The notes under the pieces: generated by a model
What the model was told of the DNA's origin: nothing
Seen by the model: only the letters and a program-made list of their open reading frames with translations
The model's database searches: none
Assembly (NCBI RefSeq): GCF_003390915.1
Contig: NZ_QMEM01000004.1
Coordinates: 124,001 to 188,000 of the forward strand
Direction: 5' to 3'
DNA: 64,000 bases
Source: Lewinella sp. IMCC34183
GTDB lineage: Bacteria; Bacteroidota; Bacteroidia; Chitinophagales; Saprospiraceae
Shown: piece by piece, positions 13,308-50,415 of the stretch
Numbering within the stretch: the stretch's first letter is position 1
Layout: each line of letters starts with the position of its first letter
Program-made: the position numbers and the translations under genes

Positions 13308-13330
13308 GCTGTAGTTCGGTAGTTCGGTAG
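13308..13330. repeat. left arm of an 8-bp-period inverted array
   Basis: Near-tandem copies of GTAGTTCG read towards the six perfect CAGAACTA units at 13338-13385. Its reverse complement contains CGAACTAC, so the two arms can pair imperfectly around a short CGCGCG-containing loop. See the tandem array entry that follows. Confidence 0.6.
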
Positions 13331-13337
13331 TCGCGCG

Positions 13338-13385
13338 CAGAACTACAGAACTACAGAACTACAGAACTACAGAACTACAGAACTA
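13338..13385. repeat. six perfect tandem copies of an 8-bp unit
   Basis: CAGAACTA occurs six times head to tail with no change, ending 5 bp before the stop codon of the TolC-family gene, so it lies in the 3' untranslated region of that gene (minus strand). Two copies of the same unit recur at 22092-22107 before the metallo-hydrolase gene. It belongs to a broader set of intergenic arrays with 8-bp period in this window. Confidence 0.9.
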
Positions 13386-29238: not shown

Positions 29239-29389
29239 GGCTTTGCGCGACTTCGCGACTCTCATTCCTCCGCGGCGAAGCAAACCACCACTCGGTCCGG
29301 GAGTAAGTGACCCCATACAATTTAGGTAGCTTCTTCCTACGAGCGAAGCTGACCCTACTCCCCCGAGCGAAACGAGCAAAGCCCTAAAC

Positions 29390-29618
29390 CGAGTAAAGCG
29401 AGCATCCCCGCAAATGGTAACTAGTAGATGGTAATTGGTAAATCGTATATCCCCCTCCACGAGAGCAGCGAACATCCTTACACGAGCGAAGCAAGCTGAG
29501 CCGTCAAACGAGCAAAGCGAGCATCCCCGCAAATGGTAATTAGCAGATGGTAATTGGTAAATCGTATATCCCCCTCCACGAGCAAAGCGAGCATCCCCAC
29601 AAATGGTAATTAGTAAAT
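29390..29618. repeat. three direct copies of a ~71-bp intergenic repeat (third partial)
   Basis: Copies at 29390-29460 and 29509-29579 are 71 bp and differ at only a few bases. A third, truncated and slightly changed, runs 29579-29618. Each starts CGAGYAAAGCGAGCATCCCC and then turns AT-rich (AAATGGTAATTAG..., GTAATTGGTAAATCG). Extra GAGCGAAGC words lie at 29340-29380 and 29482-29495. The 562-bp gap 29080-29641 therefore holds only repeats and hairpins; I see no gene in it. Confidence 0.85.
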
Positions 29619-42563: not shown

Positions 42564-43130
42564 ATGAGCAAACGCATAGCCATCTTCGTCAGCGGCGGGG
42601 GCAGCAACGCCCGCGTGATGATCGACCGCTTTCAGGCGTATCCCGAGGACGGCGTGCAGGCGGTACTGCTCGTCAGCAACAAGGCTTCGGCCGGCGGCCT
42701 CACGGTGGCGGCGGAGCGCGGGGTGCCGAGCCTCGTGGTGAAGCGGAGCGACTGGGCGTCGGGCGGGGAACTGCTCCGGGCCCTCGAGGAATACAAGGTC
42801 GACCTGATCGTACTCGCCGGCTTTCTGTGGCTGATCCCGCCCTATCTGGTACAGGCCTACCCGAAACGGATCGTCAACATCCACCCCGCCCTGCTCCCCC
42901 AGTACGGCGGCAAGGGGATGTACGGCAAGCACGTACACGCGGCGGTGAAGGAGGCCGGAGAAACGGAGAGCGGCATCACCATCCACTACGTCAACGAGAA
43001 CTACGACGAGGGCAGCATCATCTACCAGGCGGCCGTGCGCCTCGATCCCGACGACTCACCGGAGCAGATCGCCGAGCGGGTACTGCGGCTGGAGCACGGG
43101 AATTACTGGCGCATCGTACGCGAGCTGTAG
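42564..43130 (+). CDS. purN: phosphoribosylglycinamide formyltransferase
   Basis: 188 residues; transfers formyl from 10-formyl-tetrahydrofolate to GAR in purine synthesis. The phosphate-binding loop FVSGGGSNARVMIDRF is at about residues 7-22. LIVLAGFLWLIPPYLVQAYP follows, then the active-site segment RIVNIHPALLPQYGGKGMYG with catalytic Asn and His, and the last aspartate in VNENYDEGSIIYQ. The N-terminus is normal from ATG 42564. Followed by the TCC-loop hairpins at 43145. Confidence 0.95.
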   Translation: MSKRIAIFVSGGGSNARVMIDRFQAYPEDGVQAVLLVSNKASAGGLTVAAERGVPSLVVKRSDWASGGELLRALEEYKVDLIVLAGFLWLIPPYLVQAYPKRIVNIHPALLPQYGGKGMYGKHVHAAVKEAGETESGITIHYVNENYDEGSIIYQAAVRLDPDDSPEQIAERVLRLEHGNYWRIVREL

Positions 43131-43138
43131 CCGCCTCC

Positions 43139-43237
43139 GTACAACGCTGCCTCCGGCAGCGGAAGTACGATGCTGCCTCCGGCAGCGCAGTAGAACGAGG
43201 TTTCCAACCGCGAAGTAAGACGAGCTCTCCGAGCGCG
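43139..43237 (+). repeat. tandem array of four TCC-loop hairpins after purN
   Basis: Four units of about 26 bp follow one another. Stem-loops: CGCTGCC-TCC-GGCAGCG (43145-43161), GCTGCC-TCC-GGCAGC (43172-43186), GGTT-TCC-AACC (43199-43209 region) and GCTC-TCC-GAGC (43224-43234). The last two also share an outer CG...CG pair with an A-G mismatch in the same place. The loop TCC and the spacer AGTA are kept while both stem strands change together. Confidence 0.8.
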
Positions 43238-43267
43238 ATGCTCCCCGCGGCCGGAAGCCACCTCCTC

Positions 43268-44050
43268 CTAATACACCTCCACCGGCGAGCGGTAGCCATT
43301 CTCCCCCTCCACCAGTTTCAGGTAGGTCAGGTTCAGGTTCTTCAGCTCATCATACTTCAGGACCATCATGTGACCCTTGATCCGGTAGAAGCGATCGACG
43401 TGGGGGTCAGATGGCGGAGCGTCCTGCGTGAGCGGGCGGCGGCGGACGGCCTTCAGGCTGATCGTCTTCAACCCACCGTCGGCGGCCAGTTCGTAGTCAA
43501 CCAGTAGTCCCATGTAGAGGTAGCTCCCGGCCGCCGTATCCTGCACGGCATTTACGCTGACCAGTTCGATGTCCTCTACCGTGTCGCGCTCCAGGTTGTA
43601 TTCGGCCCGGGGGAAGTCGAAGAATTCGCCCTTCAGGGTATAGTGCCAGTTGTTGCGGTAGCGGAAGAGCTTGTAGCGGCGGTCCCACTTCCGGCTGCGC
43701 ACCACCTTGCGGGCGGCGAAACCCGTCAGTCCTGCCAGCAGGCAGAGACTACCCTGATGGAGGACGATCCAGCGTAGGTCGTTTTCGACTCCGGCCAGTG
43801 CTGCGGTTACGGAGTCGCCGGAAACCAATTCGCCAAGGGCGGAAAGGCTCGGTGCCGGCGTAAACAGCTGCCCGAGCCAGTACCAGACCAATTGAAACAT
43901 CAGGCTGGGCACGATGGTAGCCGTGAAGACCAGAAAGAGATTCTCCCGAAAATATTGCTGTGAAAATTCCTCGCTGTAGTACAGTCGTCGGAATGCGATG
44001 CCAGGCAACAGAAGGATGAAGAGAACAACGGTAGACAGCGCCAGGCTCAT
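43268..44050 (-). CDS. membrane protein of unknown function (260 aa), possibly DUF6338-like
   Basis: The N-terminus has one hydrophobic helix (STVVLFILLLPGIAFRRLYY), a second follows (NLFLVFTATIVPSLMFQLVW) and a third at about 95-112 (QGSLCLLAGLTGFAAR). The C-terminal 130 residues are soluble and beta-rich, starting KLFRYRNNWHYTLKGEFFDF. This N-membrane, C-beta layout reminds me of DUF6338 proteins, but I am not certain. It forms a pair with the 71-aa gene 9 bp upstream. The block with the two small genes is bounded by inverted TCC-loop hairpin arrays. Confidence 0.65.
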   Translation of the reverse strand: MSLALSTVVLFILLLPGIAFRRLYYSEEFSQQYFRENLFLVFTATIVPSLMFQLVWYWLGQLFTPAPSLSALGELVSGDSVTAALAGVENDLRWIVLHQGSLCLLAGLTGFAARKVVRSRKWDRRYKLFRYRNNWHYTLKGEFFDFPRAEYNLERDTVEDIELVSVNAVQDTAAGSYLYMGLLVDYELAADGGLKTISLKAVRRRPLTQDAPPSDPHVDRFYRIKGHMMVLKYDELKNLNLTYLKLVEGENGYRSPVEVY

Positions 44051-44349: not shown

Positions 44350-44616
44350 TTATTCGCGATCGAACTTCCGTCGGGCGATATCCCAGTTCGCTTTGGCCTC
44401 GGACAACCGCTTGCTTGCCCCTTCGATCATGGTTCTCAGTTCTTCTACCCCCAGCTTGACGGCGCTCTCCCCTTTGCCCACGGCGGCGTGTAGTTTGGCG
44501 TCGTCATCGACCCAGAAGGTCAGGAATGCGAACGGGTCCGCGGGGTCATCGCGAAATTCAAGGTAATACCCGTCGTTGTCGACTTCGGAGCCGAAGGTGG
44601 TATGGTACGTTTTCAT
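44350..44616 (-). CDS. small protein of unknown function (88 aa)
   Basis: Starts MKTYHTTFGSEVDNDGYYLE at ATG 44616; the upstream open frame is repeat sequence. The first half looks like beta strands (EFRDDPADPFAFLTFWVDDD), the second half one long helix (VEELRTMIEGASKRLSEAKANW, split here only by reading). No signal or membrane segment. It is 74 bp from the 71-aa gene on the same strand. Family not recognised. Confidence 0.55.
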   Translation of the reverse strand: MKTYHTTFGSEVDNDGYYLEFRDDPADPFAFLTFWVDDDAKLHAAVGKGESAVKLGVEELRTMIEGASKRLSEAKANWDIARRKFDRE

Positions 44617-44671
44617 CGTTATATCTGGGAGGTGTACTGGCTTGGGATACCTCGGGGGGCTTCGGGTCATC

Positions 44672-44720
44672 GCGGCCGGAGGCCGCACTGTACCGGCGCT
44701 GCCAGGAGGCAGCATCGTAC
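44672..44720 (-). repeat. two TCC-loop hairpins in the 3' region of batB
   Basis: On the + strand GCGGCC-GGA-GGCCGC (44672-44686) and GCTGCC-AGGA-GGCAGC (44698-44713), so the minus strand, which is sense for batB, reads TCC in the loop. The outer part GTACGAT matches the second purN-side unit. The repeat begins on the last base of the batB stop codon. Confidence 0.8.
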
Positions 44721-45745
44721 TACACCTCGTACCGCTCCGCTACCCGCCGGTCCTTGCGCCCCAGGGTAGCATCGATCAGCAGCAGCAGCACGGCCGGAGC
44801 CAGAAACCAGTAAAAGTAGCTGTCGTAACTGCTGAACTCTTGCGTCTCGAATTCCTGCTTCTCGATGCGGTCCACCTGGGCGCGCAGGGCCTGCGCCAGG
44901 TTCTCGCTGTCGCCGCTGAGGGCGAAATAGGCACCCCCGCCGCTGTTGGCGATCTCTTCGAGCGTGGCCGCGTCGGCATTGGTCGTGGCGGGTCCGCCAC
45001 CCGGCTCGCGGATGTAGTCGCTGCGCCCGTTATTGAGCTGCACCGGCATCAGGCTGCCGCTGGCTTGTCCTACGCCTACGGTGTAGACCAGCAATCCGGC
45101 CTCGTGGGCCGCGGCGGCGGCGGAAGCGGCGGCCCCGGCGTGATCCTCGCCGTCGGAGACGATGATCAGCGCACGGTGGTTGGCGCTTTCCGGGTCGAAG
45201 GCGGCCTCCGCGGTAGTGATGGCCTCGGCCAGGTTGGTACCCTGGGCGCTGATCTGGTAGGGGGCGGCGGTGCTCACCACGCTCTTCACGAAGGCGTAGT
45301 CGGTGGTCAGCGGGGCGGCCATCACGGCAGTGCAGGTAAAGAGCTCCACGCCGATGTTGTTGCCCTTTAGTTCGTCGATGAGGGTATTGGTGAAAAAGCG
45401 CGCGCGGTCCATCCGGCTCGGCTTCACATCCTCGGCCCGCATGGAGTTGCTGATGTCGAGAGCCACGACCAGGTCGATGCCCCGCCGCTTGATCTCTTCC
45501 CGCTGCGCCGACCACTGCGGATTGGCCAGGGCGATGACCAGGAGGGGCAGGCTGATGGCGAGCAGGATAAATTTCGTCCACGGCAGCCGCCGGTTTACGC
45601 CGGGGGCCAGGTAGTCCAGCAGTTCCCGGTCGGCGAAGCGGTCCAGCGCCGCCCGCCGCTGTCGCCAGTACCAGAAGAACAGCCCGACGACGATCGGTAC
45701 CAGCAGCAGGAGCCAGAGGTAATCGGGATGTTCTACTCTAAACAT
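44720..45745 (-). CDS. batB: BatB-like von Willebrand A membrane protein
   Basis: 341 residues. Two N-terminal helices (YLWLLLLVPIVVGLFFWYW and KFILLAISLPLLVIALANP), then a VWA domain with the metal-site motif VVALDISNSMRAEDVKPSRM (about 92-111), a threonine in QGTNLAEAITTA and the aspartate in LIIVSDGEDHAGAAAS. A C-terminal helix (YWFLAPAVLLLLIDATL) returns to the membrane. In Bacteroidota, Bat proteins (aerotolerance) sit with MoxR ATPases; here no MoxR or DUF58 gene is adjacent. An unknown 189-aa gene separates it from batA. Confidence 0.9.
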   Translation of the reverse strand: MFRVEHPDYLWLLLLVPIVVGLFFWYWRQRRAALDRFADRELLDYLAPGVNRRLPWTKFILLAISLPLLVIALANPQWSAQREEIKRRGIDLVVALDISNSMRAEDVKPSRMDRARFFTNTLIDELKGNNIGVELFTCTAVMAAPLTTDYAFVKSVVSTAAPYQISAQGTNLAEAITTAEAAFDPESANHRALIIVSDGEDHAGAAASAAAAAHEAGLLVYTVGVGQASGSLMPVQLNNGRSDYIREPGGGPATTNADAATLEEIANSGGGAYFALSGDSENLAQALRAQVDRIEKQEFETQEFSSYDSYFYWFLAPAVLLLLIDATLGRKDRRVAERYEV

Positions 45746-50333: not shown

Positions 50334-50415
50334 GCGGGTGTGGTGAAATTGGTATACACGCTAGATTTAGGATCTAGTGCCGCAAGGCGTGAAGGTTCGA
50401 GTCCTTTCACCCGCA
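50334..50415 (+). tRNA. tRNA-Leu, anticodon UAG
   Basis: Acceptor GCGGGTG (50334-50340) pairs with CACCCGC (50408-50414), discriminator A at 50415. The anticodon stem CTAGA/TCTAG carries loop TTTAGGA with anticodon TAG. A long variable arm (TGCCGCAAGGCGT) marks the class II tRNA, and the T-arm has TTCGAGT. The CCA end is not encoded. Followed by tig after 72 bp. Confidence 0.97.

Follow-up and report, generated by a model that had tools for sequence, protein, structure and literature searches.

Tandem TCC-loop hairpins after purN in Lewinella sp. IMCC34183 belong to a dispersed family that is very probably linked to a RAYT transposase

Why should four small hairpins, each closed by the same three bases, stand in a row just after a purN-type gene? 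The question is raised by a stretch of 64,000 nucleotides (the window) of the marine bacterium Lewinella sp. IMCC34183, contig NZ_QMEM01000004.1, positions 124,001 to 188,000. An original prediction, made from the letters of this stretch, had described four consecutive hairpins with constant TCC loops at 43139-43237, and the four are there as described. The answer argued for here is that they belong, very probably, to a family of REP-type elements (repetitive extragenic palindromes) linked to a RAYT, a REP-associated Y1 HUH transposase. What can be read from the genomes is a family, pairing of its stems, hairpins to either side of the RAYT gene, co-occurrence of hairpins with the RAYT, a loop specific to species, and arrays that run head to tail and close with a distinct last unit. 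That a RAYT moves and cleaves the hairpins is a candidate mechanism proposed from these features.

Judged alone, the purN array makes a modest case. Its four units of 25-26 bp lie head to tail at 43139-43239 (spacings 26, 25, and 25 bp), starting 8 bp after the TAG stop of purN. Each unit consists of a head GTA(C/G/A)-RA-Y, a 6-bp stem, the TCC loop, and a linker of 3-4 nt. Two of its stems are the same, the other two contain a mismatch, and a 201-nt fold gives z = -2.4. The prediction had read the last two stems as GGTT/AACC and GCTC/GAGC. Those letters are present, but each belongs in fact to one 6-bp stem that is in the same register as the others and has an A-G mismatch as its second pair; the outer CG..CG pair noted in these two units falls in register with that stem. 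Beyond the four units then described, the window holds another array of the family, two units at 44670-44720 on the minus strand, and the G that begins the head of its first unit is the final base of the TAG stop of a VWA/BatA-type gene.

Within the genome as a whole (5.10 Mb in 57 contigs, here G000), the hairpin family is far beyond chance. A genome-wide pattern search, suggested by the original prediction as a check along with covariation statistics, gave matches far above controls: 104 places with the family pattern (up to 3 mismatches) against 0 for the reversed control, and 155 against 7 for a stem-free pattern with 3 free positions per arm and at most 1 mismatch. A covariance model gave at least 166 matches, with 150 of 7103 first-look candidates scored. 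From this genome 54 stretches were taken, 53 of which hold family places, and a scan of those 53 regions yielded 173 units in 64 clusters, the units being what a filter for loop, stem, and frame left of 232 candidates. A hand-made list of 3 excluded places had no effect on the units the filter kept, judging by the candidate rows. One cluster, C52:326805, was dropped from the counts of position and TAG, leaving 63. The array after purN is just one of about 63 sites, and its link to purN is therefore incidental. Loops among the 173 units are TCC in 151 cases and TCCC in 11, and 103 of 109 spacings have a period of 25-27 bp. The head begins with GTA in 137 units, and its fourth base is C in 117, A in 36, G in 17, and T in 3.

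The stems behave quite differently from head and loop. The strict stem-free pattern has 98 matches in the 53 regions, and in 89 of them the free arms are complementary throughout; re-pairing the arms in 2000 trials gave 46.5 on average and never more than 58. Stems other than the dominant GCTGCC are complementary in 28 of 30. In 27 distinct units the paired share of cells is 96%, versus 82% when shuffled and 22-47% when slid. The claim that both strands of the stem change together around a constant loop is thus borne out beyond all three controls (shuffling, sliding, and re-pairing). Among the stem types are GCTGCC, GCGGTC, GCGGCC, GCGCTC, and GCAGCC. Within this one genome, then, head and loop hardly vary, and the stem is free in sequence yet paired.

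One statement of the prediction has to be given up, namely that no family with these features has been described. In the available parts of three papers (PMC3733652, PMC2817692, PMC3686654), REPs linked to RAYTs have a conserved head and a variable palindrome whose stem changes are complementary, occur in many copies, and lie close to gene ends. Such elements would be short non-autonomous DNA repeats that fold as single strands, whose hairpins a dedicated RAYT would recognise and spread. The REPtrons, GTAG REPs with their RAYTs, resemble the Lewinella hairpins, so far as partial accounts of them go (Nunvar 2010, Di Nocera 2013), in their high-copy short palindromes, variable paired stems, RAYT between inverted copies, and TAG stops at gene ends. 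Here, in contrast, the head is of GTAC type and two bases off the stem, the loop is a constant TCC, and the arrays run head to tail. The kind, REP plus RAYT, is already known; the arrangement is unusual. A search for literature on palindromes in Lewinella or Saprospiraceae found no paper, most subscription papers lying outside the search. By the available part of PMC6006769, the REP families with which further ones are sought come mostly from Proteobacteria.

If the hairpins are REPs, where is their transposase? The genome has two Y1_Tnp genes. The first, P0001, lies outside the window at C50:477662-478372 on the minus strand. It matches Y1_Tnp (PF01797) at 27.5 bits, the cut-off being 23, and of the NCBIfam models REP_Tyr_transpos matches it best (E 6e-13). 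A search for named relatives of P0001 found none. Of its HUH and Tyr motifs, H138, H140, and Y201 are invariant in nine aligned sequences, namely seven of the nine orthologues introduced below and two paralogues (the orthologues of G007 and G004 were left out, an in-frame stop standing where the match begins). In E. coli TnpAREP, the residues W94, Q95, and R104 read GTAG. P0001 keeps W94 and R104 and has Ala at the position of Q95, in an alignment that is weak (E 0.031), and that Ala is invariant in the nine sequences. At least 9 hairpin units lie on the 5' side of the gene and 4 on its 3' side. By scan, arrays flank the RAYT gene with their heads outward in eight of nine genomes; in the ninth the outward arrays were read by eye, TGC and TAT loops among them. 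At the locus of G007 one extra, off-register match points the opposite way. The orthologues are 50-100% identical across nine Neolewinella/Lewinella genomes, with one neighbouring gene kept in all nine and another in eight; these I take to be a sugar-nucleotide transferase and a sigma factor. A comparable class is TnpAY1 subclass 2.6, of Bacteroidetes and with 'atypical secondary structures', which, in the available part of PMC6006769, shares the phylum, the NHVH motif, non-GTAG structures copied in the genome, and GTAG-reading residues that are not conserved. As judged by motifs, the two differ at the Y motif (YVLNNP here, YIH[QN]NP there) and in WA here as against WQ there.

Two related genes have repeats of their own. 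The second Y1 gene, P0002 (G000:C34:1244004-1244681; locus L031, 1201-1908), scores 61 bits against NF047646 and is flanked by a different dispersed repeat (TCGGGCCGGAGGCCCTCA...), the core of which has three copies in the window (25865, 29217, 31774) with 1-2 mismatches, versus 0.27 by chance. In a relative, G002, a paralogous RAYT-like gene (L096) is bordered by the tandem hairpins GCTGCT-TCC-AGCAGC and GCGGCT-TCC-AGCCGC (1130-1430, 2240-2380), again with TCC loops and with a different head.

Then there is the distribution of the two partners. Sixty genomes were searched with the RAYT protein and with the hairpin model. An orthologue (E < 1e-70) occurs in nine: G000, G001, G004, G007 (N. xylanilytica), G009 (N. 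maritima), G012, G013 (N. litorea), G017 (N. marina), and G018 (N. aquimaris). With at most 132 candidates scored per genome, these hold, in the same order, at least 146, 82, 87, 79, 25, 104, 84, 53, and 69 hairpin matches. On the same terms the other 51 genomes gave 12 (G010, 55% complete), 3, 3, 2, and 1, and 46 gave none. Compared with the window's, the VWA proteins of the RAYT genomes are 85-89% identical, and those of 11 further genomes of the genus 66-73%, so that the nine probably form one clade. The loop, too, follows the species. TCC places outnumber TCA places by 108 to 0 in G000, 66 to 0 in G001, 65 to 1 in G004, 67 to 2 in G007, 14 to 0 in G009, 82 to 0 in G012, and 28 to 5 in G018, and TCA dominates in two species, N. 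litorea (11 TCC, 38 TCA) and N. marina (7 and 27), whose RAYTs are about 70% identical to that of G000. In the twelve genomes of the genus that lack the orthologue, TCC places number 0-1 and TCA places 0-2. The genus amounts to a natural experiment: one syntenic RAYT in nine genomes, head and loop largely fixed, stems free as long as they pair, and a shift from TCC to TCA in two species.

Clusters outside crudely called open reading frames (ORFs) lie at a median distance of 6 bp from the nearest gene 3' end, and 30 of 39 are oriented as that gene; 16 of 63 lie within such ORFs, a figure that is too high, as it counts the purN array. In 18 of 63 clusters, and in 16 of 48 runs in relatives, the first unit is preceded by TA, so that its G completes TAG. 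To supply a TAG stop from the head is known behaviour of REPs, and PMC3733652, in the part available, reports it as frequent for ends of GTAG REPs. Might the hairpins instead be RNA elements, maintained at mRNA 3' ends because they stop exonucleases or terminate transcription, and spread by whatever means? Their closeness to gene ends and their direction would suit that, as would stems that can pair as RNA, some G-U included. Nonetheless I consider it very unlikely. Between 42900 and 44900 there is one terminator-like site (GC hairpin and T run), at 44474, in neither array, as compared with 1.4 in shuffled sequence, and Rfam at gathering thresholds finds only a tRNA in the window (50334-50415) and nothing at the arrays. 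The tie to the RAYT locus speaks against such a role, and the orientation would follow from insertion beside TAG stops. Any influence on mRNA 3' ends would be secondary.

A comparison of the 3' end of purN in 18 genomes bears on the same point. Hairpin units lie at or within about 10 bp of it in G004, G007, G012, G013, G017, and G018; in G001 they are closer to the VWA side of the junction. At the purN-VWA junction of N. maritima, where the two genes all but abut, a hairpin was looked for and none was found, which speaks against the RNA reading. By eye, over 420 bp, the ten genomes without a RAYT orthologue show no family hairpin at the end of purN. Insertions rewrite gene ends, too: in N. litorea and N. 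marina the stop codon of purN has given way to a hairpin unit, and PurN is nine codons longer. Among the eight relatives with the orthologue, purN and VWA are 25-352 bp apart in seven and 566 bp apart in G012.

How did the arrays come about? REPINs and BIMEs are also higher-order arrays of REP hairpins, but REPINs are inverted pairs, whereas none of the 55 multi-unit clusters of G000 mixes orientation; all run one way. The arrays of relatives were studied in 60 stretches from five of the eight other orthologue genomes, picked from strong model matches, and 6 of 49 clusters there hold two opposed arrays. Plain expansion of a palindrome by replication slippage, with no transposase at all, would account for the constant period and for a slight tendency of neighbours to be alike (99 of 230 versus 91.8; 43 of 1000 shuffles as high). 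It is extremely unlikely, since it leaves unexplained the mixture of stem types in 37 of 55 arrays, the some 63 dispersed sites, and the distinct last unit.

That last unit deserves attention. With the RAYT locus (L061) excluded and units chosen without regard to the head, GTA is found in 51 of 54 first units, 30 of 34 middle units, and 27 of 54 last units of G000, and in 48 of 53, 64 of 70, and 26 of 53, respectively, in relatives. Arrays discordant between first and last head fall 26 to 2 in G000 and 25 to 3 in relatives, and amongst two-unit arrays 16 to 1 (n=33) and 16 to 0 (n=23). Over heads as a whole, first and last units differ by 32 to 3 and 27 to 3, respectively; at the fourth base they differ in relatives (27 to 5) and not clearly in G000 (17 to 10). 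As GTA persists in half of the last units, the rule is a statistical one. An earlier reading, that last units are simply older and more degenerate (28 versus 8, with 17 ties), was dropped because stem quality is the same in first and last units (5 versus 7 in G000, 6 versus 6 in relatives) and only the heads differ. The last unit looks like a distinct end rather than a product of decay.

A simpler view is that these are ordinary REPs requiring no new mechanism, the direct arrays being local amplification and the last head relaxed, since one good head per array suffices. I give this about an even chance. Some dimers are plainly duplicated: at G000:C54:108519-108756 a two-unit dimer stands three times in tandem, its period being near 64 bp. 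Moreover, many last units do have GTA. However, the odd last heads are not random: G1 is kept in 26 of 27, R5 in 27 of 27, and A6 in 26 of 27 in G000, and in relatives 26, 24, and 26 of 27, respectively. Nor are last stems any worse than first ones, and redundancy alone does not predict that middle units should keep GTA.

On the main reading, the RAYT would recognise head and loop, and the stem would have only to pair; the enzyme would cut at or next to the G-T of the GTAC head, and arrays would arise through insertion next to existing heads and next to TAG stops. Such insertion would explain why arrays lie at gene ends in the direction of the gene. I propose further, tentatively and as the less probable outcome, that the arrays are two-ended miniature single-strand transposons made of direct hairpins. 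Units with the GTAC head would form the left end, and the last unit, its head changed at positions 2-4 and kept at G1, R5, and A6, would form the right end. With only head and loop read by the RAYT, stems could drift while they pair and the loop would co-evolve with the enzyme. The GTAC guide would direct a cut at the G-T both in its own head and in TAG stops, and by such self-targeting arrays would grow head to tail. Cleavage after G may occur at both array ends. An AG trailing the last unit is found in 21 of 53 arrays of relatives, versus 7 at control offsets, which gives some support; in G000 the figures are 17 of 54 and 14, which gives none.

The proposal draws on what is known of IS200/IS605 elements, whose end hairpins lie in the same direction, with different guides. 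The arrays may move as two-ended units in that manner. IS608 and ISDra2 have a guide sequence 5' of the hairpin foot at each of two ends, as the available part of PMC6006769 describes, and this is the likeness; unlike them, the Lewinella arrays have no gene between the hairpins, and cleavage at two ends is putative. The Marinomonas REPtron Mb, in the portion of PMC8266576 available, has, as here, a guide 2 bases from a short stem, and its loop bases are essential; its natural guide, though, is GTAG, and the head here is GTAC. When that guide was changed from GTAG to GTAC, cleavage moved to GA and GT. In a Stenotrophomonas REP one loop base is essential. The same partial source calls the spreading of REPs by RAYTs poorly understood. 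If direct arrays with a distinct last unit do move as one, they would form a link between REPs and two-ended IS200/IS605 elements.

Several facts weigh against the REP/RAYT reading. REPs are defined by a GTAG or GTGG head, and only 17 of the 173 units have G as the fourth base, most heads being GTAC. P0001 scores 48.9 bits against NCBIfam NF047646, under the cut-off of 80, and a profile search of solved structures reached E. coli TnpAREP (4er8) at E 0.031 only, too weak to count. The numbers of hairpins per genome are rough, and the co-occurrence with the RAYT counts as about one event, the nine genomes being probably one clade. In the Stenotrophomonas enzyme a change to GTAC abolished cleavage, and the E. 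coli enzyme tolerated no guide substitution (PMC8266576, in part). The system works like REP/RAYT and is best placed beside it, but its heads are mostly not GTAG as in REPs, its units are not inverted pairs as in REPINs, and its transposase falls below the curated RAYT cut-off.

The features of the window that belong to this account are given in the table.

Table. Hairpin units and adjoining genes in the window
Feature	Position	Strand	Description
Hairpin unit 1	43139..43164	+	head GTACAAC, stem GCTGCC/GGCAGC plus outer C-G, TCC loop, linker
Hairpin unit 2	43165..43189	+	head GTACGAT, stem GCTGCC/GGCAGC, TCC loop
Hairpin unit 3	43190..43214	+	head GTAGAAC, stem GAGGTT/AACCGC (A-G mismatch), TCC loop
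Hairpin unit 4, last of array	43215..43239	+	head GTAAGAC, stem GAGCTC/GAGCGC (A-G mismatch), TCC loop
Second array, unit 1	44696..44720	-	head GTACGAT, stem GCTGCC/GGCAGC, loop TCCT
Second array, last unit	44670..44693	-	head GTACAGT, stem GCGGCC/GGCCGC, TCC loop
purN-type gene (formyl transferase)	42564..43130	+	Formyl_trans_N, E 9e-47
VWA/BatA-type gene, stop abuts second array	44720..45745	-	VWA_2, E 3e-16

Between the purN and VWA arrays lie two ORFs without Pfam matches, at 43268-44050 and 44350-44715. The window has other repeats as well. A 119-bp unit occurs in two tandem copies, 87% alike, at 29364-29596, and an 8-bp unit, CAGAACTA, in six perfect copies at 13338-13385; further 8-bp tandem units are found at 13311, 22089, 39094, and 39171.
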